From NCBI GenBank assembly GCA_016906335.1, contig JADEYG010000012.1, positions 1,116,501 through 1,180,500 on the forward strand: a DNA stretch of 64,000 nt, in the 5' to 3' direction. The notes under the pieces are model-generated. The model was not told where the DNA came from. It did not search any database and saw only the letters and a list, made by a program, of their open reading frames with translations. Shown here one piece after another: positions 43,253 through 60,625 of the stretch. A program made the translations under genes and the position numbers. Each line of letters opens with the position of its first letter. The first letter of the stretch is position 1. The stretch is from Novakomyces olei (lineage: Eukaryota > Ascomycota > Novakomycetes > Novakomycetales > Novakomycetaceae).

Positions 43253-46200
43253 ATGGGGATTCCAAAAGTAGGTTTTAGGCATCATTTTATCATCTGTGAT
43301 TTTAACGAATACAGTTTTTTCGATGGATAAGCGAACGCTATCCCCTAATCTCGCAAGTGATCCAGGACAATCGAATTCCAGAGTGAGTTGCCCCGACTGA
43401 GTTATGATTTGCGCTAACGCTTCCTCCTTTTCTGTGGTAAACAGATTCGATAACCTGTACCTTGACATGAATGGGATCATTCACAATTGTACTCACAAGG
43501 AAGACCATACTTTGGCCGCGCTGCCGCGAAATGAAATGTACATTGCTATATTCAACTACATTGAACATCTCTTTGTCAAGATCAAGCCTCAGAAAGTCTT
43601 CTTTATGGCTGTGGACGGTGTGGCACCGAGAGCCAAAATGAACCAGCAACGTTCGCGACGATTCCGTACTGCCAAAGATGCACATGATGCTCGTGCAAGG
43701 GCGGTCGCCAAGGGCGAAGAGCTTCCACAAGAGGATCCGTTTGATAGCAACTGCATCACGCCCGGTACAGAGTTCATGGTTGAGCTGTCGAAGCAGCTGC
43801 ATTACTTTATCAATAAAAAGGTCAGTGAAGATTCGGACTGGCGCGGAGTACAAGTTATTTTCTCTGGTCACGAGGTCCCCGGAGAGGGTGAACATAAGGT
43901 AGCTGAGTTTATTCGTACGCAAAAGGCGCTTGAGGGATACAATCCAAACACTCGGCATTGCTTGTACGGTCTGGATGCGGATCTGATAATGTTGGGTCTT
44001 CTTTCACACGACCCGCATTTTTGCTTATTGCGCGAGGAAGTAAACTTTGGGCCCACAAGCAGCCAAAAGAAAAGCAAAGAATTAGAGCAGCAAAAATTCT
44101 ATCTCATGCATTTGTCATTATTACGAGAGTACTTGGAGCTTGAGTTTGAGTCTTTGCGGGGCGCAATGTCGTTTGAATATGACTTTGAGCGGATAATTGA
44201 TGACTTTATTCTATTGGCCTTTTTTGTTGGCAATGACTTTTTACCCAATTTGCCAAACTTGCACATAAACGAGGGTGCTCTGGCACTGATGTTTAACACT
44301 TACAAGCATTGTTTACCCGAGTTGGATGGGTACATTAATGAAAGGGGCACTATAAATTTTGCCAGATTGTCTAGGATTTTAAAAGACATGGAGGGATATG
44401 AGCGAGAAATCTTTGAACGACAAAGCGAGGATCTTTTGTGGTTTGAAGGAAAGCAGAATGCTTTTGTGGATGCTATGGAACACGCAAGGTCTAAAAACAG
44501 GCTGGTGGTAACGCTTAAACAGAGGCAGATTTTCGAAAAATTGCGAGATTTTATAAACAATGAGAAGGAGGGCGTCGAGTTCCCACAGGACGAGCTTTCA
44601 GTGGCGGACGAACGGTTCCTGCAAAGTCTCGTATCTGCTCTGCACCTGGTTTATGTAAAACAGGGCACAGTAGGCTCAGAATCTTACCCTGTCTATTACG
44701 TTGCCAAACCTATTGAATGGGACGATGAGGAGGAAAGTGAAAGTTCAGACAAGGAGCAAGAAAAAGAAGAGGAAGAAGAGCATTTGGAGATTGTACGAGT
44801 TCTACAAAAGTATGATTCTGCCCCTGTGATGGACGTGGATACAAGCGCAAATTTTGAAGAGCAAACGGAAAAGCTGTACAATGAAGCATTTGATTCTTGG
44901 AAGGACAAGTATTATTCGGAAAAGGTCCACTTCTCCTATTTTGAGAGCGATAAGCTCGAGAACATGGCGGAAAATTATTGTGAGGGTCTTCAGTGGGTTT
45001 TGTACTATTATTACCGTGGCTGCCCTTCTTGGGGCTGGTTTTACAAGTACCACTACGCCCCACTTGTCTCGGATGTGAGAAAGGGAATAAAGGAAAAGTT
45101 TGAGTTTGAACAAGGAATGCCCTTCCGTCCCTTTGATCAGCTGATGGGAGTCCTTCCGGAGAGGAGCAAACAGCTTGTTCCGCCCGGCCTAAGAAGCCTG
45201 ATGACAGAAGAAAATTCAATTATTAAAGACTTTTATCCTGAGGATTTCCCGCTTGATATGAATGGCAAAAAACAGGCTTGGGAGGCAGTTGTATTGATCC
45301 CCTTCATCGACGAACATAGGCTGCTAGACGCTATAAACAAGAATTATTTCAAGCTTACAGCGGAGGAGAAAGCACGGAATACCTTTGGACACGATATAGT
45401 GTTCAAGTACGATCCGGATGTGGAGTACATGTACGCCTCATCGTTTCCTTCTGTCTTTCCTGATTTTCCGAGCAAATGCCGGGCAGAGATTTATTTCCTG
45501 CCTCAAGTTTCTCCAGAAGATTTACTGGTTGGGCTGTGCAGAGATGTAATGCTGGGCAAGGACAGTTTGGCCGGGTTCCCCTCGCTTCGAAGCCTGCCCT
45601 TTGCTGCACAAATGGGTATGAGCAAAGTCAATGTCTTTGGCCAGGAAAGCCGCAACGAGTCCATGTGCCTGGCTATAATAAACCATTTCGAAGGCCAATC
45701 ATTAGAGGCAGTCGTCGAGCGACTTTTGGGCAATCCAATTTACGTCAATTGGCCTTATCCGCGCGAGGCAAAAGTAGTATCTGCAATGTCTGACGCTATG
45801 GTTTTCGCTATCGATGAAAAAAGGGGTCAATTGCAGACAAGTAATAGCAAAGTTGACGATATCAAACAGTTTCAAAAAGCTAAAAATGAGCTGGAGGCCT
45901 TTTACAATAAAAACGGAGTGTCTGTTGGTGAAATTGAAGTTGTTGTTACTGTGGCGCCTTTGAAGGGTCTGCGACAGACTGATGAAGGCGCATTTTTAAA
46001 GGATTTTTCTGATACCCAATCGCTGTCGCCACTTCAGCTTGTAATTACTGATGAGTTGAACGAGGATGCGCGGTACAAGGAACGAGCGGCTATGCCTATA
46101 GCCGACGAGTTTCCCGCAGGCACAAACGGCTTTTTCCTCGGTGATTTTAATTACGGACGGCCCCTGCAAGTCATTGGCCATGTTGACAATTCAAAGCTGG

Positions 46201-47537
46201 ATATTTGGCTGTTGACTTTGCCTCATAAGATCCCGGAGTTTGGCAGAGAGTTTGTTCGGCGCAGGGAGGAGATGTTTAAATACTATCCTTCCCCCGTTGT
46301 TGCGAAAATGACGGGTGTACCTGCTCTGCCATTGAGCAAATTAATGTCGAGCATGAGTGTAGCTTTTGGGCCAAAGGGCCATATCAATGCCGGCCTGAAC
46401 TTGAAGTTCGAGTCTCGAAAGCAAAAAGTGATTGGCTACTCCCGGAAGAATAGCTATGGCTGGGAATATAGTGCTGACGCTGTTCGTCTCGTAGCCGATT
46501 ATCGTGCAAAGTTTCCAGAGTTTATTGATTATATTTGCAAAAACCCGACAAAAGGTGAGGAAAAATAATTCCAAAAATGAGACAAGGCAATTATACAATT
46601 TTGAATTGAATTGGAACGTTATTGAGACTGTTACATTATAATGCCTATGATACTAACTGCCCTAGACATTTACTCGCTGGACGATATTTACGGGACCAGT
46701 GCTCTGCTCAAGAGTATCGAAATAAAAGGCTGGCTTGCGGACAAGAAGATTGGCGCCCTTGAGCGGGTAGCGATCGACTGTGAAGCTCTAAGCGCCGAAG
46801 CAGTCAAGCACTTGGAGCATGTAACGGACCAGTATCTGTCGAAAACACCCGCACTAGTCCCGAAACGACTTCATGGTGTTCCTCGCAAGGCAGTATTGAA
46901 ACCGGAAAACGCAGAGAGCCGATTGAAAAACCAAAATTTCAGTCTGGGAGACAGGGTCGTTTACGGACTGAGTGCGGGTAAAGTCCCCATTGCCACTACT
47001 GGCACAGTTGTTTCTGTGACTACCGAATTTATTGATGTTTTATTCGATAATACGTTTATGAGCGGCACTACTTTGAACGAGAGATGCTCACCCTATCGTG
47101 GGCTTTCCGTCGCACGATCAGCCTTGCTGAACTTGACAAACCCTCAAGTAATCGCTCACTCAAAGGCCAGTCAGACGAGACGTCCTCAAACTGCGTCTCA
47201 TGTGGCCCACTCTCCTCAGCCAAAGAGAGTTAGTGCCTGGGCGACTCCGGTCCATGCCAAACAGGAGCAGGGACATCCAGAATTCCATCATGTACCTCCG
47301 CCCAATTCACTTCAAGCCACCCGTGGTCGTGGAAGAGCGCGTGGGCGTGGCAGTGGATTCACCAACGGTCAACGCGCAAACTACGATAGCCTCAAACATC
47401 CAAATTCATATGTTAACCCTAACCCTAAATTCAATCAAAATCGCGATGCGACGGCGCCGAGAGGTGAACGAGGCGGCCGAGGCGGCCGTGGAGCTCCACG
47501 AACACGCCGACCAGCGGGCAGTGCGACGACAGATTAA
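43253..47537 (+). CDS. XRN1: 5'-3' exoribonuclease Xrn1
   Basis: Four exons (43253-43267, 43315-43382, 43445-46554, 46666-47537) join into 1354 residues; introns are 47, 62 and 111 nt. The first exon is only 15 nt (MGIPK) and joins FFRWISERYP, the invariant Xrn1 N-terminus. The catalytic CR1/CR2 regions follow: LYLDMNGIIHNC, VDGVAPRAKMNQQRSRRF, SGHEVPGEGEHK, YGLDADLIML and FVGNDFLPNLP. The last exon carries the SH3-like segment SLGDRVVYG with FDNTFMSGTTLNERCSPYRG and an RGG-rich tail. Xrn1 degrades decapped, 5'-monophosphate mRNA in the cytoplasm. An acidic Glu-rich insert lies near residue 435. The final exon continues past an in-frame stop that would end the protein early if intron 3 were retained. 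Confidence 0.97.
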
Positions 47538-52890: not shown

Positions 52891-54837
52891 TTAGAAAAGG
52901 ACAGTACCAAGAATCAAAATGGCCAGAGCACAACCCAATGCGCCAGAATGAACGAGGGCAGAAGAACCGGAAGCTTGCTTCAAGCTGGACTTTGAAGTCT
53001 CTGGTCCTGCGTTTGGTGAAGACGTGGCAGTCGCGGACTTGGTCGATTTTATGGTCGATTTTGTGCCCGACTCATGGACCGTATGATCTGCCTTGTGATC
53101 TGCCTTGTGGCCAACTTCGTGATCATGATCGTGGCCTGCTTCGTGATCATGATCGTGATCTGCTTCGTGTTCGTGATCGTGATCTGCCTCGTACTCCTTA
53201 TTTTTCTTATTTTTATCAGCCTTTTCCAGGACTGAGTGGGTGCTTGAACTGTTGCTCCTTTCCAATCCACCGCCAACAAATTTCATTATCTCACCTTGCT
53301 GATTGGCGACCTCCTTCAATGCCTTCTCACAGGCACCACTTTCAATTTCAGGCATTTGTGGAGGCTCCAGCAGAGCAAGATCAGCAACATGCCGCCTGGC
53401 ATTAAGGGCATGGAACACGCTGGCATAGCTCCAAGTCAAATCGTAAGCTCCTCTCTGGAACCCTGTAACCCGGTCAATCTGCTCCGACATGGACCCGTCA
53501 CTTGTGAAAACGGCGGATTGAATTGCTCTCATGTACCCGTCTGCAAACTGCACAATTCTGGGCAGAACTTTGTCTGCAGTAAAGTTCTGATCCAACGGCA
53601 GACCGGTCAGATACGATAAAGTTGCGTTGGAAATACTGCTCAACTCTTGTTCATTCTGGTCCAAGTAGTAGGCTGCTTCGTAAAGAACATTGGCAGCAGT
53701 GGCAGTTGTAAGGAACCAGGGATTGCCGATGCTCGACCCGGTTCCATCGTACACGTCTTCCGGGTACCTTCCCAGCCAAACACCACGATGGTGTTTGCCG
53801 GTAGAGTGCGAATTGTGCTTGGCATCGTACTTGCCGTTGACAATATCGGTGTTTATTGGATAAAGTGCCGCCATACGCTTGTTTATCTCCACCAGCGTCG
53901 ACAGCATCTCGTTGCTCCAGGGCGGGAACTCTGATTGGCCATGCAGGCCGGCCAATAAGACGGAAGTATCGAGCCCAGAACGGGCGTCAGAGGAGCGAAT
54001 GTATCCCACGGATGGGTCGTAGAAGGAGCGCGTTGTATTGTCAATCTCAAGGGAGACCATATCCCACGCAGAAGCGGCAGCCGAGTCGCCTATACGACCA
54101 GCCAAAAGAGCACCTTCTGTCATTGCTCGGCTGGAGACGGCGAGTGTGAAAAAGTGCTGACCGGAAACTTCCTCCCACAGATCAAACGAATCATTGGACC
54201 AGTACTTGGCAACGTAATTCAGATCTGCACGAATGATAGAGGTAGAATTACCTCCATTTTTATCAAAAAGCTCGGGCGGGACTTTCTCGCCATTGTCAAG
54301 GAGGTGGTTGACGAAATGAATGAGAGCGATTGCTCTTAGAGCGGGTCCGTCACTCTGCGGTCGGCCCCAATTTTCCGAGAATACCGTCCCGTCCACGTGG
54401 AATTTCGGTTCTCCCAATCCCGCGTCTAGCGCGGGCCCCGAGGGTGTATCCAGTAATTGTAGTTTTTTAACCTCGGTCACATAGTCCATAATATCCTTTG
54501 CCGAAACGAGAGATTTTTCCGTGTCCCTATCAGGATCTGCAACTAACAGCCGAATCAGTAGATCAAAAGTCAGCGCTGAATCACGGGTCCACTGGTAAAA
54601 ATAGTCGGGGGTTGAGCGTGAAGGACTGGCCACTACCACGCCAGGACCAGCACCGGTTGCTTTTTTACCCAACGGACCAATATTATTGTGTATTCCATCG
54701 AGACAGTACTGCGACTGAAGGGCTATCCAGTCGTAAAAGTCGATATTCATGCCCTGCTCATCGGAGCTGCAGGCAAGAGAGATTGCCATTGACGTGGTGA
54801 GAAGGCCCAGGGCCACAAGAGCCGGTGTTCCCTTCAT
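52891..54837 (-). CDS. GH15 glucoamylase, probably GPI-anchored, with His/Asp-rich stalk
   Basis: A single exon of 648 residues. A signal peptide (GTPALVALGLLTTSMAISLAC) is followed by the GH15 catalytic domain: FYQWTRDSALT, FSENWGRPQSDGPALRA, the general acid region DLWEEVSGQHFFTLAVS, and the base region SMSEQIDRVTGF with YDLTWSYASVFHALNAR. It releases glucose from the ends of starch or glycogen. There is no CBM20 starch-binding domain. Instead the tail is a repeat of DHDHE/ADHDH-like units, then Thr/Ser-rich sequence and a C-terminal hydrophobic segment (GALGCALAILILGTVLF) that looks like a GPI-attachment signal. A cell-wall or plasma-membrane enzyme is inferred. The His-rich stalk could bind metal ions, but this is not proven. 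Confidence 0.93.
   Translation of the reverse strand: MKGTPALVALGLLTTSMAISLACSSDEQGMNIDFYDWIALQSQYCLDGIHNNIGPLGKKATGAGPGVVVASPSRSTPDYFYQWTRDSALTFDLLIRLLVADPDRDTEKSLVSAKDIMDYVTEVKKLQLLDTPSGPALDAGLGEPKFHVDGTVFSENWGRPQSDGPALRAIALIHFVNHLLDNGEKVPPELFDKNGGNSTSIIRADLNYVAKYWSNDSFDLWEEVSGQHFFTLAVSSRAMTEGALLAGRIGDSAAASAWDMVSLEIDNTTRSFYDPSVGYIRSSDARSGLDTSVLLAGLHGQSEFPPWSNEMLSTLVEINKRMAALYPINTDIVNGKYDAKHNSHSTGKHHRGVWLGRYPEDVYDGTGSSIGNPWFLTTATAANVLYEAAYYLDQNEQELSSISNATLSYLTGLPLDQNFTADKVLPRIVQFADGYMRAIQSAVFTSDGSMSEQIDRVTGFQRGAYDLTWSYASVFHALNARRHVADLALLEPPQMPEIESGACEKALKEVANQQGEIMKFVGGGLERSNSSSTHSVLEKADKNKKNKEYEADHDHEHEADHDHDHEAGHDHDHEVGHKADHKADHTVHESGTKSTIKSTKSATATSSPNAGPETSKSSLKQASGSSALVHSGALGCALAILILGTVLF
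53085..53195. repeat. Coding repeat for His/Asp-rich glucoamylase stalk
   Basis: Imperfect 12- and 24-bp units (plus-strand GATCATGATCGT and CTTCGTGATC variants) encode the alternating DHDHE-type segment of the glucoamylase tail. Confidence 0.8.
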
Positions 54838-54900
54838 GATTAATTAAATCAAAAAGACTGGCAGATTGAGCAGTGAATCAATTGAGCAATGGATCAATTA

Positions 54901-54945
54901 AGCGATAATTCAATAAGCGATAATTCAATGAGCGATGATTCAATC
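54901..54945. repeat. 15-bp direct repeat in glucoamylase promoter
   Basis: Three tandem copies of AGCGATAATTCAATA with two or three changes, 64-108 bp upstream of the glucoamylase start. Looser related units extend on the side nearer the gene. Confidence 0.75.
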
Positions 54946-55632
54946 AGGCAATCAGCGGGTAAACGAGTACCGCAGTTCCAAGCTTCAAATTATCTATTTC
55001 AACGAGATAATTGCCAAACGAGTGAGCAATAAACGAGTCCTTTCATAAACAGATCAACGGAGGAACCGGTCGTGTCCAAGTCGCACCTCGATGCTGTCCC
55101 TAACGGAAAGGGCGCCGTAATATATGAATTCGCTGTTTGAATTTGCGTAAATTTGCAAGTTCCGTGCGCGGCATGTCACATGATTTTGAGCCTTATTTGT
55201 AACCCCGGAAAAAGTCACATCTCCACAACACGGCTAATTGGTTTGGGAAATATTCCGGAAATTAATGGGAAATTCATAATTAGATTCTGTAGTGTTCAAG
55301 AGACGATAATTGGAACGCCTATTTATAGCTTTGGGTATTTCGGAATCGTATCATGTTTGTGGCGCATGAAAGTTTTTCGCGCCCGATGTCCGTCATTCCT
55401 AATTCATTCGCCGCTGTTCATTTTAGAGAGCCACAGCGCGCCTTATCGAACAGACTGTACATAAGAGGGAATATAGTCTGTCATTGATGACATATTTGTA
55501 TATGGGCTGTTATTAGACTGACAGTAAGCATAATATTAACTATAATAAATGGACTATAATAATTGACTATTGACCAAAATAATTGACTTTAATAAATGTC
55601 CAAAATAAATTTACTATAATAGATTGAGGTAC

Positions 55633-55845
55633 TCACGCTATAGAATGGACAAACGCTTCAATAACAGCATTCGTACTATGGAAAACGATCAATCTCGTTG
55701 CGATGTACTCAAGTCTAACTAATGCATGTCTCGCCCAAAGCTTTAATTTCACATAATGTTCCACAAGTTTAAATTTTTTGAAACATAAGACACACAGAAT
55801 ATTGATTCTACATCTGTTCTTTATGCAAGCACAAGCAAAGAGCAA
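55633..55845 (-). CDS. Possible orphan exon
   Basis: An open segment on the minus strand encodes a Cys-rich hydrophobic start, then VEHYVKLKLWARHALVRLEYIATRL, and runs into a consensus GTGAGT donor at about 55636. The composition looks protein-like. It has no ATG in frame, and no convincing partner exon was found on either side, so it may be chance, a remnant, or an exon of a gene with unseen parts. Confidence 0.2.
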   Translation of the reverse strand: MLFACACIKNRCRINILCVLCFKKFKLVEHYVKLKLWARHALVRLEYIATRLIVFHSTNAVIEAFVHSIA

Positions 55846-55969
55846 AGCAAAAATAGCGATTGGATACGCTATTCGTAGATGAAATTGGTATAATCACAAC
55901 TGCATATTACCATCCGTAAAAGAGAAAAATCTAAATATACAAACAGCATCCCGCTTAACGGTGCCACAT

Positions 55970-57049
55970 TTACCAGCCCATTGCATCAGTGGGCGAGGCA
56001 AAAGCTTCTAGCAAATCCTTTCGCGAAATACCTTCTTCCTTTTCCTGGCGAGGCAAACGTAGAATAGAAGCGCCCCATCCTTCCATGCCGAGAGAAGTAA
56101 CAAAATTGCCCAATCTTAATCCTTGTACTTTAATGCCTTTGTGTTCTAGCTGAGAAACGAGTTCGGCTCCCCAGTGAGCTAATTCTTCTACGCTAGTTCC
56201 GCCGAGAGAATTAACAAGCACTAGCACGTCATCGCCATTTTTGACATCTACATAAGAGTGCTCAGGATCAGCAGCGTCCAATAAAAGCTCCACCATTCTT
56301 CGCACGAGCTCGTTACGTGACGGAAGTGGCGCAGACAACCGAACCAATCCAGGCTCGCCGTGTGCACCCATTCCGAGCTCGACAGTATTGGGTGGCAGCT
56401 CTTCCCCGTGTGTTCGTAAAGCAGTGGGATGATGCGCTCGCGAGAACGAACAGCTTACGGTACCCAAGGCTCGCTGCAATACTTGCGCCCGCGCAGCAAG
56501 CGTATCGGCATTGATCCCATTCTCACGCTCCGCTACGTGGGCTAGGTACTTGATCACGAGCACGTGACCAGCCAAACCACGTCTGCCGACTTTACCCACT
56601 TTGCTGCGTGGGATACTGACGTCGTCGCCCACGCATACGAGTCGTACAGGCCCATATTGAGTGCCGTGACGGGCTTGCGCAGCACGTGTCAGTGCCAAAC
56701 CGGCATTGAGCAAGTCACCCGTGTAATTTCCAAATACGAGGATAGTACCGTGAGGTGAAGCAACGGCCTCCAGTGCCTCTAGCATATTGGTCGAATTAGG
56801 CGAGGCAAAGACTGTACCAGAACATGCTGCCGTAAGCATCCCGCTTCCGACAAAGCCATTAAACATGGGCTCGTGGCCGCCCCCGCTCGACCCCACGATA
56901 GTGGGATGTTTCGCTGCATAATCACGGGCGTCTGTACGAAGAACTACGCCCTGCGCCGGTGATGCTGACAGTCCGGGGACCAACAATGGTACAGTGCGGG
57001 TATATATAGGGACACTCTCCCGTGGGTCGTCAATGATGTGAACCGCCAT
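55970..57049 (-). CDS. Dihydroxyacetone kinase K-domain protein (DhaK only)
   Basis: A single exon of 359 residues from the ATG at 57049; the longer frame upstream has no ATG, so its hydrophobic lead is UTR. The DhaK active site is intact: His59 in SSGGGHEPM, Asp112 in NYTGDLLN, and the substrate-binding His230 in ELGMGAHGEPG, plus GRRGLAG and the C-terminal NSLGGTSVEELA. In fused fungal enzymes this domain binds dihydroxyacetone covalently and DhaL supplies ATP. Here the protein stops at SPTDAMGW, the position where the linker to DhaL would begin, so it cannot phosphorylate alone. The divergent neighbour encodes the DhaL domain. The intergenic 382 bp include a 27-bp palindrome. The size resembles bacterial DhaK, but the neighbour argues for local origin. 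Confidence 0.92.
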   Translation of the reverse strand: MAVHIIDDPRESVPIYTRTVPLLVPGLSASPAQGVVLRTDARDYAAKHPTIVGSSGGGHEPMFNGFVGSGMLTAACSGTVFASPNSTNMLEALEAVASPHGTILVFGNYTGDLLNAGLALTRAAQARHGTQYGPVRLVCVGDDVSIPRSKVGKVGRRGLAGHVLVIKYLAHVAERENGINADTLAARAQVLQRALGTVSCSFSRAHHPTALRTHGEELPPNTVELGMGAHGEPGLVRLSAPLPSRNELVRRMVELLLDAADPEHSYVDVKNGDDVLVLVNSLGGTSVEELAHWGAELVSQLEHKGIKVQGLRLGNFVTSLGMEGWGASILRLPRQEKEEGISRKDLLEAFASPTDAMGW

Positions 57050-57431
57050 AGCAAAGAAAGTTATAACGATACAACAAAAGAAGGAAAAAATATAGAGTAG
57101 GAGAGTCTTGTCACCCGTTTGACTAGACAAAAGACTGAAAATTCAGTGTGATCAGAGACACTTTATACGGTTGACATTCGTGCTCGAGTATTGAACCGTT
57201 CACGAACAATTCGAAAAGAGTAGTGAACTGGTAATATACGCTTCAAGTCACGAAATGCGGAGGATAAGCCCTCACGAAAACCCTGACTCAATATGTGGGG
57301 GAGATTAGTTCGGCAAGAATAACCGCCGGTTATTCTTGCAGAATCAAAATGCGGAGAACATAAACTTGTGCAAAACGTATCGGCCATCCCACACACGCAA
57401 ACTGCAAATCACAAATTACAAGCATTTGGCA
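57050..57431. promoter_or_regulatory. Shared divergent promoter of the dihydroxyacetone kinase pair
   Basis: 382 bp between the two start codons, containing both 5' UTRs and a perfect palindrome at 57313-57339. No other gene fits in it. Confidence 0.6.
57313..57339. promoter_or_regulatory. Perfect 27-bp palindrome, possible operator
   Basis: Two 13-nt arms (GCAAGAATAACCG and CGGTTATTCTTGC) are exact inverted repeats around one C. The centre reads CCG-C-CGG, the inverted CGG-triplet layout recognised by many fungal Zn2Cys6 factors. It lies 93 bp from the DhaL-gene start and 264 bp from the DhaK-gene start. It could alternatively act as an RNA hairpin in the 5' UTR of the plus-strand gene. Confidence 0.6.
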
Positions 57432-58937
57432 ATGGCAGATTTCGCAGTTTTGACGCCGTTGCTGCGTCCATCAATCACACAGTACAAGGTCGCGGATGAC
57501 ACGTACGTTTACGTGGACTCTAAAAATGTGACGCGGCTTTATGCCGCCGTAGAATCTCCAGGCCAGGCTTACCAGTTGCTGAAAAAAGGGCTGGTGGAGG
57601 CAGTTGCCACGGGACCCAAGGCATCGTTTGCAATTGCATCCCACACACCGGCGGAAGCCTTGGTTTTGGACGCAGCTGGAAAAGGAGAGGAGACCAAGAG
57701 TGCCAAAAATATTATCAATTGCTCGGTGGGGGCATTATGGACGTTGGTACAGGCCGTAAGATTCTCGCCTAAACGAAATGCCACAGCATTGCAAAAAGTA
57801 GAAGCATCAGCTGCTCATTTTGGCACGAGTTCATTTCGCCTTGCTGATCTGCACGGGGAGCGGGAGGAGGACGTCATCAGTGTACAAGTAAACGATAAGC
57901 GTGCTGAATTTAAAAGCGCTGCTGCACTAGCTAAAGCCGTCGTATCGGCAGCTTTGCCTAGAAACGCAAGCAAAATGGTTAGCGTGACGGTAGCAAATGT
58001 AAACCAAATTGCGGAACTCGAGTTTGCCGTTTTCGTTTACGATGTTGTAAATGCTCTCAGAGACGCAGGTTTGCTCGTGGCAAATTTGTCCACATTTGCC
58101 GTGGCGGACGGGGAAGCCAAAGGCTTCCGGCGCACTGGACAGCAAGGGGCTGACGTGTATGTGTGGGATTCGCCGATAGAAACAGCATTCCCAGCGCGGA
58201 GGGTGCAAGAACAAATTCTTCGCAGCCACCGTATTGCCGATGCCGAAAATGGGCTGCAGACCAAGTTTGCATTTGCCGACGTGGGCTTGCTTATGCAGGC
58301 AATTCGGGCGGCCTGTTACTCTTTACTTGCAGCCGAACCGGAAATTACACGCATGGATACGATTGGCGGAGACGGTGATGCTGGGCAGACACTTGCATTA
58401 GCAGCAAATATTACGTTGGAGTATACGGAGCAGTCTGCGCGTAGCCCACATAACGCAGCCCAAGTTTTAGGTGGGCTTTCTGAGGCACTTGAGCGTGGGG
58501 GAATGGGCGGCACTAGTGGCGGCCTCTACCGAATTTTCTTATCGAGCTTGGCTTCTGAAGTAGCCGACTTGCCTGCGCCCGATTCTAGCGTGGGAGAGGC
58601 CCCACTTTTTGCGCGGGCTTTAAAGAACGCAGTTTCTACGTTGCTCAGGTTTACTCGTGCACGTAAAGGCGATCGCACGCTACTGGATCCGCTTATCCCA
58701 TTTGTAGACACTTTTGTCGACGCATTGGAGAAAGGAGTTTCCACGCAAAATGCTTTTAGAGCTGGAGAACAAGAAGCAGAAAGGGGCTATGAGGATACAA
58801 AAAAATTAAAGGCTAGTGTTGGCCGCGCGTCTTATGTAGATGAAGAAAGTCTTACGAATGTCGGCGATGCTGGTGCCCGTGGAATTCTGGCCATCCTCGA
58901 GGGAATCCGTCAAGTGCTTTTTCCGCAGATCATATAG
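57432..58937 (+). CDS. DhaL-domain protein with degenerate DhaK-like N-domain
   Basis: A single exon of 501 residues from the first in-frame ATG (MADFAVLTPLLRP). Residues about 281-501 are a DhaL ATP-binding domain: GGDGDAGQTL near 312 (Mg-binding Asp residues), GGMGGTSGGLYRIFL, RTLLDPLIPF, and GRASYVDEESL with a closing DAGA. Residues 1-260 have the length of a DhaK domain and keep its last part (EFAVFVYDVVNALRDAG, then VYVWDSPIETAFPA, like the usual DAPT-APAWP end), but show no GGGSGHEP, NYTGD or G-GIHGEPG motif, so this half should not bind substrate. The pairing with the adjacent DhaK-only gene suggests a two-subunit kinase phosphorylating dihydroxyacetone. A regulatory or chaperone-like role is possible instead. 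Confidence 0.88.
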   Translation: MADFAVLTPLLRPSITQYKVADDTYVYVDSKNVTRLYAAVESPGQAYQLLKKGLVEAVATGPKASFAIASHTPAEALVLDAAGKGEETKSAKNIINCSVGALWTLVQAVRFSPKRNATALQKVEASAAHFGTSSFRLADLHGEREEDVISVQVNDKRAEFKSAAALAKAVVSAALPRNASKMVSVTVANVNQIAELEFAVFVYDVVNALRDAGLLVANLSTFAVADGEAKGFRRTGQQGADVYVWDSPIETAFPARRVQEQILRSHRIADAENGLQTKFAFADVGLLMQAIRAACYSLLAAEPEITRMDTIGGDGDAGQTLALAANITLEYTEQSARSPHNAAQVLGGLSEALERGGMGGTSGGLYRIFLSSLASEVADLPAPDSSVGEAPLFARALKNAVSTLLRFTRARKGDRTLLDPLIPFVDTFVDALEKGVSTQNAFRAGEQEAERGYEDTKKLKASVGRASYVDEESLTNVGDAGARGILAILEGIRQVLFPQII

Positions 58938-59245: not shown

Positions 59246-60185
59246 TCACCTTTTAAGCCCATATTTTTCAAAATCAAAATTGGCAAGAGAAAGCAAAACT
59301 TCACCCTTGCCATTAATCTCGTTTTGCTCTGATTCTGACAGAACGTCCCAAATAGCAGGGTCAGGTACCCAAATAACGTGCATGCCTGCACTAATTCCCG
59401 CCCGGACGCCGGGCAAACTGTCTTCGAAAACAAGGCACTCTTGCGGCTTAATATCCGTGCCATTTTGTTCATTTAGTTGTCGTAGGGCCACTAAGAAAAT
59501 ATCAGGATCAGGTTTCCCTCGTCCCTTGGGAATACGTGGATCGTCTCCAGTTACAATTGCTTTTCCAAAGCGTGAAAACATTTCTGGATGAGGAGCAGTT
59601 TTCACCTCAAACATTCGTCGAGCGCTGCTCGTTGCCAAAGCAATAGCATTTCCACCTTGATAGAGCGCATCTACCAACTCTTTGGCTCCCGGCATTGGCT
59701 CAACGAGAGCAAACTTGTGCATTTGGGCTTTTGACTGTTCGGCAAAATATTCTTCCGGCGTCAATGGGATACCAGACCAGTCTAACAGCACTCTGGCTGC
59801 CTGCAAATTAGCCCACACTGTATTTGTCTCATTGAGTATTATGATTTTGTTAGAGCACAATCAATGTTGGCTGCAATGCTGGTTTTATTTGACAAAGTCC
59901 AATTCTTTAGCCATTGCGTCTTCTCCAAAGCTTGTCTACATTGTTTTTCCTTGTCTTTATCTCGTCTCTCTACTATCATTATACATCATTTTATCTTTGA
60001 CCTGATACACTTACCGCTGGCCCAACACGGCCCATCATGTTCTTCTTCACATCCATTGGCATCGGGCCTTTACCATATCGCGCCAGGATTTCGTTCACTG
60101 TATCAGTATATACATGCTCCGTCCCCAATAAAAGACCGTCCATATCGAATAAACAGGCCTTCATTTTCAGCTGATTTGTACCCAT
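59246..60185 (-). CDS. HAD-superfamily phosphatase (pseudouridine-5'-phosphatase-like)
   Basis: Two exons (60185-60015, 59800-59246) with a 214-nt intron give 241 residues. HAD motif I is Asp14/Asp16 in [11 protein letters not shown]. The cap follows, then motif II ([13 protein letters not shown]), motif III with Lys in KPDPDIFL, and motif IV in [14 protein letters not shown]. The [29 protein letters not shown] block and the overall length match the Gs1/HDHD1 group, which includes pseudouridine-5'-phosphatase. A sugar-phosphate substrate is also possible. It lies tail-to-tail with the DhaL gene, so a link to triose metabolism cannot be excluded but has no direct support. Confidence 0.87.
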
Positions 60186-60625
60186 GTTGATTGGGGTCTA
60201 ATGCGATTTTATCTTATTTTCTCAATTTTTGACTAGTTCAGCCCACCCTCTGCAGCCTTTTAAAAATGTCATTAGACCTAATTAAATATATGGTTTAGTG
60301 GGATTGGCCCATAAACCTTTATATTGAACGCTCTCCGTCGTAGTGAATAAAAAACTAATATACCAGTCATTAAGCCTGTGGAAGTTTTTATTGAATACCT
60401 GTACCATGACCCAGACTTTATGCCGTGTAACCGAGTCGAAATTATTTATTAATAGCAAATGCTAGTAATATGAAAAAAGACAGATTCAAATTTGATAATT
60501 ATAGAAATTTAGTTTCTAATAATTCTATAATTCGAGTTGTGCCTATTCTCAAACAATGTTTGAAATATCCACCTATTTACCTCGTTTGTGAATAACTTTT
60601 TAAAAATCTATGACCAAACCAGCCG
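60186..60625. other. Intergenic region
   Basis: Between the HAD phosphatase start (minus) and the NAA15 end (minus). AT-rich with no gene or repeat of note. Confidence 0.5.

Follow-up and report, generated by a model that had tools for sequence, protein, structure and literature searches.

A divergent gene pair in Novakomyces olei encodes complementary domains of dihydroxyacetone kinase and may form a two-chain enzyme

We analysed a 64-kb window of the Novakomyces olei genome (positions 1116501-1180500 of contig C12; genome 14.34 Mb, 15 contigs), in which the two domains of a dihydroxyacetone kinase are encoded by neighbouring genes on opposite strands. The minus-strand gene encodes P0001, a stand-alone dihydroxyacetone-binding domain (K), and the plus-strand gene encodes P0002, in which the ATP-binding domain (L) is preceded by a long region of its own. 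The genes are separated by a divergent promoter region that contains a perfect palindrome (Table 1). The coordinates, strands and residues that a preliminary description had assigned to both genes proved right on re-checking; the roughly 285 residues that precede L in P0002 were absent from it.

Table 1. Coordinates of the kinase genes, their parts and the neighbouring genes (window positions, except for the fused kinase).
Feature	Position	Strand	Remarks
P0001, K-only gene (359 aa)	55970-57049	-	Predicted dihydroxyacetone-binding domain of an ATP-type dihydroxyacetone kinase, stand-alone
Catalytic codons of P0001	His59 56873-56875; Asp112 56714-56716; His230 56360-56362	-	
Divergent promoter region (382 bp)	57050-57431		Between P0001 and P0002
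Perfect palindrome (27 bp)	57313-57339		13-nt arms, 1-nt centre, CCG-N-CGG core; candidate regulator site
P0002 gene (501 aa)	57432-58937	+	N-terminal region, probable eroded K remnant, linker, L domain
P0002 residues 1-156	57432-57899	+	Lies where the first half of K would be
P0002 residues 157-250	57900-58181	+	Probable eroded second half of K (pseudo-K)
P0002 L domain (residues 291-493)	58302-58910	+	Asp309/Asp314/Asp316 codons within 58356-58379
Canonical fused dihydroxyacetone kinase (589 aa)	C12:64675-66496 (L001 760-2581)	-	1.1 Mb from the pair
HAD-family phosphatase gene	59246-60190	-	Pfam HAD 59246-59860; upstream exon to ~60190 by eye
GH15 glucoamylase-like gene	52891-54837		His/Asp-rich repeat (DHDHEAD type) near C terminus
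Xrn1-type exonuclease	43404-47537	+	D2/D3 domain split over frames 43404-46568 and 46641-47537

P0001 matches the Pfam family Dak1 with 259.5 bits and shares 36% identity over 328 residues with the fused kinase of the same genome. The three active-site residues first ascribed to it were all found, within the motifs GGGHEP (His59), NYTGD (Asp112) and GMGAHGEPG (His230), although, of the 62 K columns counted as near-invariant (conserved to at least 95%; row L054_12 left out), 17 differ in P0001. P0001 had also been said to stop at the end of the K domain. Its C-terminal DAMGW, followed directly by the stop codon, was aligned with the DAPGW that closes the K domain of the fused kinase, and its match to TIGR02361, the model of the one-chain ATP-type enzyme, ends at position 343 of 583. 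A six-frame control of positions 54838-55969, which lie 3' of P0001, was free of L matches up to E 10, and in a second control, of the 382-bp gap, K matches below E 6 were absent. These controls ruled out overlooked exons by which either gene would regain a K-L chain.

The L domain that the preliminary description had read in the plus-strand gene, with its Mg-ATP motifs, was recovered: it matches Pfam Dak2 (126.1 bits, residues 313-493) and retains the aspartates Asp309, Asp314 and Asp316. At the 29 L columns conserved to 90% or more, P0002 keeps 22 residues, the fused kinase 23 and the Protein Data Bank (PDB) entry 26vk 24. Residues 282-497 of P0002 are 38% identical to the fused kinase.

Six-frame scans of the genome gave two Dak1 matches (E at most 0.001) and two Dak2 matches (E at most 10) among the best candidates scored, and these correspond to the P0001/P0002 pair and to one fused gene. 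This gene is complete and has a single inferred intron of 52 nt, which contains the sequence TACTAAC and falls within the codons for the active-site loop GGGSGH, where the P0001 gene is intronless. Its product scores 716.5 bits against a TIGR02361 cut-off of 574.95, with a match spanning positions 2-582, and is 51% identical to the dihydroxyacetone kinase chain of 26vk, whose label as fungal rests on this similarity. The fused kinase and 26vk served as reference kinases. Because a fused gene is present, P0001 and P0002 constitute an additional, diverged paralogue; a split pair acting as the sole dihydroxyacetone kinase of the genome is thereby ruled out. An altered CTG code, checked in the fused gene, was likewise rejected: the ten aligned CTG codons stand opposite five leucines, three isoleucines, one glutamine and one serine of 26vk, so that CTG reads as leucine in this gene.

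The region before the L domain of P0002 probably includes an eroded second half of K, at about residues 157-250. Residues 157-218 aligned with this half at 9.1 bits (E 3.3e-5 as a single test), using a hidden Markov model built from 34 bacterial fused kinases plus the one of this genome (35 in all), and the score was equalled by 1 of 5000 shuffles (scores listed for 4253). None of 1000 shuffles reached the score of a local profile test on residues 157-285, while two further K profiles were matched as well by 2 of 3000 and 1 of 3000 shuffles. Of the 34 bacterial fused proteins, 17 have ATG starts, and alignment A3 was built with 16, L045 being left out. The fused-kinase model PRK14479 matched residues 157-495 from its position 224 to 565, starting inside K, and the TIGR02361 match starts at residue 239, aligned with position 337 of that profile, where K ends. 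The boundary of the pseudo-K was set from this match start and by eye at DSPIETAF (DAPxxAPGW in K domains). Because the sequence has neither a GGGHEP nor an NYTGD motif, we interpret P0002 as what was once a K-L chain, its K domain now too eroded for catalysis. His141 (in LHGE), which falls opposite the covalent K histidine both by eye and in a MAFFT alignment, is not claimed as its counterpart; the scores of residues 1-156 and 90-156 were non-significant. Residues 1-160 had no PDB match at E 10 and one weak Pfam match, to GCIP_N (E 0.093), and P0002 also matched phage_HTJ weakly (E 0.1), both far under the cut-offs.

The two proteins match complementary halves of TIGR02361: P0001 covers positions 2-343 with 281.5 bits and P0002 positions 337-582 with 168 bits, each under the cut-off. 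TIGR02361, which we take not to be exclusively eukaryotic, is also the best model for P0001, ahead of PRK14479 (218.1 bits) and dhaK1 (189.8 bits). In an L tree of 49 of 76 rows, with bacterial L parts cut at fixed length, P0002 grouped with the fused kinase and 26vk (100/99) and stood outside those two (99/89). The P0002 lineage therefore seems to predate the divergence of this fungus and the source of 26vk, provided that rapid evolution has not drawn P0002 down the tree. Its L domain falls in the fused-kinase clade (100/98), which comprises 23 rows, 20 of them bacterial fused kinases and three labelled fungi, and not within the stand-alone DhaL clade.

The K domain gave a less uniform picture. 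Two trees were calculated, one with 34 of 84 rows and one with 40 of 84, thinned by similarity and with L054_12 and L030_2941 left out. P0001 was placed on the fused-kinase side in the first (98/96), and in the second 56% of 200 bootstrap trees united it with the two reference kinases; the rows nearest to P0001 by path were bacterial in both. Phylogeny thus joins L to the fungal fused enzymes, and the K tree fits a fungal and a bacterial placement alike. Outside the trees, P0001 and both reference kinases contain a stretch of 32 residues that amounts to a 7-residue insertion. Among 80 bacterial K sequences, which are the best 80 of at least 573 confirmed relatives from a K-motif scan and form an uneven sample, this stretch is 25 residues long in 62, 34 in one and 32 in none. 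Of 38 residues that are diagnostic for the references, P0001 also has 10, compared with at most 4 in each bacterial sequence (at most 5 of 39 on leave-one-out; L054_12 left out of the counts).

These diagnostic residues and the insertion, together with the L tree and the complementary TIGR02361 matches, support the earlier proposal that the split was derived apart from the bacterial DhaK/DhaL system. An inverted duplication with complementary loss had also been proposed. Complementary loss is favoured by the K remnant on P0002, which some tests detect and others miss. A local inversion is not, as the two genes are not linked by any inverted repeat of at least 16 nt. A common origin of P0001 and P0002 from a fungal fused gene is supported but unproven, and reciprocal loss after duplication of such a gene is the best reading of the sequences.

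The palindrome is the only perfect inverted repeat in the window (arms of at least 12 nt, loop of at most 10 nt) besides one TA run, and its CCG-N-CGG core presumably resembles Zn2Cys6 sites. Its inner 23 bp have no second exact copy in the genome. A genome search with up to three mismatches found one other site (contig C7, three mismatches), and because this lies inside an open reading frame, no regulon is indicated. The longer core ACCG-N-CGGT was not found in the 8 kb around the fused gene. Folded as a hairpin of a 5' untranslated region, the palindrome reaches -20 kcal/mol with a z of -2.63. It may be bound by a regulator common to both genes, form such a hairpin, or be a trace of an inverted-duplication junction. 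On its other side, the P0002 gene adjoins a gene for a HAD-family phosphatase, possibly a polyol or triose phosphatase given its position beside a triose kinase gene.

According to PMC6429413, the two chains of fused kinases are intertwined as L2-K1-K2-L1, with the active site between the K domain of one chain and the L domain of the other; the triose is bound covalently to the K histidine, and ATP and two Mg ions are held by L. Each chain's L domain therefore serves the K domain of its partner. Because related kinases are swapped dimers of this kind, a P0001:P0002 heterodimer would rebuild one site, bringing the sole good K against the sole L to give one complete site per dimer. The pseudo-K of P0002 would be a dimerisation scaffold at most.

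Taken as a whole, the locus is best explained, at slightly less than even confidence, by duplication, reciprocal decay, one promoter and a two-chain triose kinase. An old second copy of the fungal fused dihydroxyacetone kinase would have duplicated; one descendant would have kept K with its active site and lost L (P0001), and the other would have kept L while its K eroded (P0002, pseudoK-L). Once the chains were paired, loss of L from one copy and of the active site from the other would have cost little. Both genes would be transcribed from the common divergent promoter, and their products would act jointly as a two-chain ATP-dependent triose kinase. We infer the assembly of the dimer, the joint activity and the substrate, and regard a two-subunit enzyme made of P0001 and P0002 as a good hypothesis. 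A more specific version is offered only tentatively: an obligate asymmetric eukaryotic triose kinase that arose through reciprocal domain decay after duplication of a domain-swapped homodimer, with one complete site per dimer, possibly a changed sugar substrate, and a palindrome-bearing divergent promoter. If true, it would show how loss alone can turn a swapped homodimer into an obligate heteromer, and eukaryotic triose kinases would gain a naturally divided example, with domains open to testing both singly and in combination. Annotation of P0001 and P0002 as two dihydroxyacetone kinases would then be misleading.

Several results weigh against this two-chain explanation. An intact fused kinase is already encoded in the same genome. 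P0001 keeps 45 of the 62 near-invariant K columns, compared with 54 of 62 in both reference kinases, and its changes include SGG52-54 to GSS, Ile221 to Ala, and Lys106 to Gly at a position that we take to be Lys104 of E. coli, a dihydroxyacetone contact. Its branch in the K trees is very long (4.3). These changes and the long branch may point to another substrate or to weakened activity. The 40-row K tree rejected neither a fungal clade (p 0.283) nor a placement of P0001 with stand-alone bacterial K (p 0.111; 15 stand-alone K rows and three fused rows that fall among them). The L tree came with a caution that long branches had been joined, and in it the bacterial row L065 attaches to the fungal three at 96/87. 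The K remnant of P0002 was missed by a three-sequence K profile (1342 of 3000 shuffles scored as high) and by an end-anchored profile test (230 of 1000 shuffles for residues 157-285, all 1000 for residues 1-285). Pfam misses it too: residues 1-285 had no match of any kind at E 10, Dak1 included, and did not reach the curated Dak1 cut-off. With hhalign, the same residues matched the K alignment at 24% probability, and residues 1-156 had no detectable K similarity in any test. A single-sequence AlphaFold model of P0002 was uninformative, with a mean predicted local distance difference test score of 39.3.

A different explanation, which we consider unlikely though the strongest of the rivals, is that P0001 and P0002 went apart, with P0002 acting through L alone, for example as a flavin mononucleotide (FMN) cyclase, and P0001 serving as a triose binder, a regulator of the kind that DhaQ is for DhaK, or a partner of the fused kinase. 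In human TKFC, the L domain by itself nearly equals the dimer in efficiency as an FMN cyclase (PMC6429413), and P0002 has a well-conserved L domain next to an eroded region. P0001 fits such a role in retaining the covalent histidine while having lost the conserved lysine and the SGG loop, and the fused kinase is on hand as a partner. However, the single 382-bp divergent promoter and the complementary content of the two genes point to a common task, and P0001 keeps His59 and Asp112 besides His230, which a mere binder would need less.

The pair could also be a duplicated kinase in decay, with both halves heading for loss and having no important function. P0001 and the region before L in P0002 evolve fast, and an intact fused copy exists. 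The codon-usage scores of both genes lie within the range of the other genes in the window, but for residues 1-285 of P0002 the in-frame score is 0.025 and that of another frame up to 0.039, so that coding is not proven by this measure. Against decay, both reading frames are open, that of P0001 running from ATG to stop, whereas the two alternative forward frames contain 14 and 15 stops across P0001, and 13 and 11 across residues 1-285 of P0002. P0002 also has an L domain nearly as conserved as that of the fused enzyme, in a lineage that looks old, and we consider decay improbable. Least probable is that the K-only gene was transferred from a bacterium and lies by accident next to a broken fungal fused kinase: the bacterial placement allowed by the K trees (p 0.111), the bacterial nearest rows and the HGEP of P0001, which several bacterial K sequences share, are set against the 7-residue insertion, the 10 of 38 diagnostic residues and the lead of TIGR02361 among the models of P0001.

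Other genes detected in the window include a GH15 glucoamylase-like gene and an Xrn1-type exonuclease gene. With a NatA subunit, the ATP-type fused kinase and the TACTAAC sequence of its intron, they make up the features that mark the organism as a yeast-like fungus. The division of the Xrn1 D2/D3 domain between two frames suggests an intron or a frame break.

No split or pseudo-domain fungal kinase was recognised in the open-licence literature, though one may be reported elsewhere, and the available parts of two yeast papers (PMC8466642, PMC3610204) do not mention one. Like the one-chain ATP-type kinases described by TIGR02361, of which yeast DAK1 and DAK2 are examples, the pair has the same two domains, the catalytic triad of K and the aspartates of L. 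Unlike them, it carries K and L on two genes of opposite strands, and P0002 has an eroded region where K belongs. Separate chains for K and L are also found in the bacterial DhaK/DhaL/DhaM system, which depends on the phosphotransferase system (PTS). The pair differs from DhaKLM in that the L domain of P0002 lies in the ATP-type fused clade and is joined to a probable K remnant, and in the divergent orientation of the genes; to our knowledge, fungi have no PTS. The DhaL-DhaK-DhaK-DhaL arrangement of E. coli resembles the fused-kinase dimer (PMC6429413).

DhaQ, a paralogue of DhaK whose model TIGR02362 is named 'DhaKLM operon coactivator', is comparable in that a K paralogue is used beyond plain catalysis. 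In contrast, P0001 scores 135.7 bits against a TIGR02362 cut-off of 413.25, and the pseudo-K of this locus is fused to L. The closest parallel in logic is provided by paralogous heteromers that replace homomers after duplication, as treated in a 2019 eLife study (PMC6711710). The present pair would differ from them in what each partner gave up, an entire domain in one case and the complementary active site in the other, and it would share with those complexes the course from a duplicated homomer to a heteromer.

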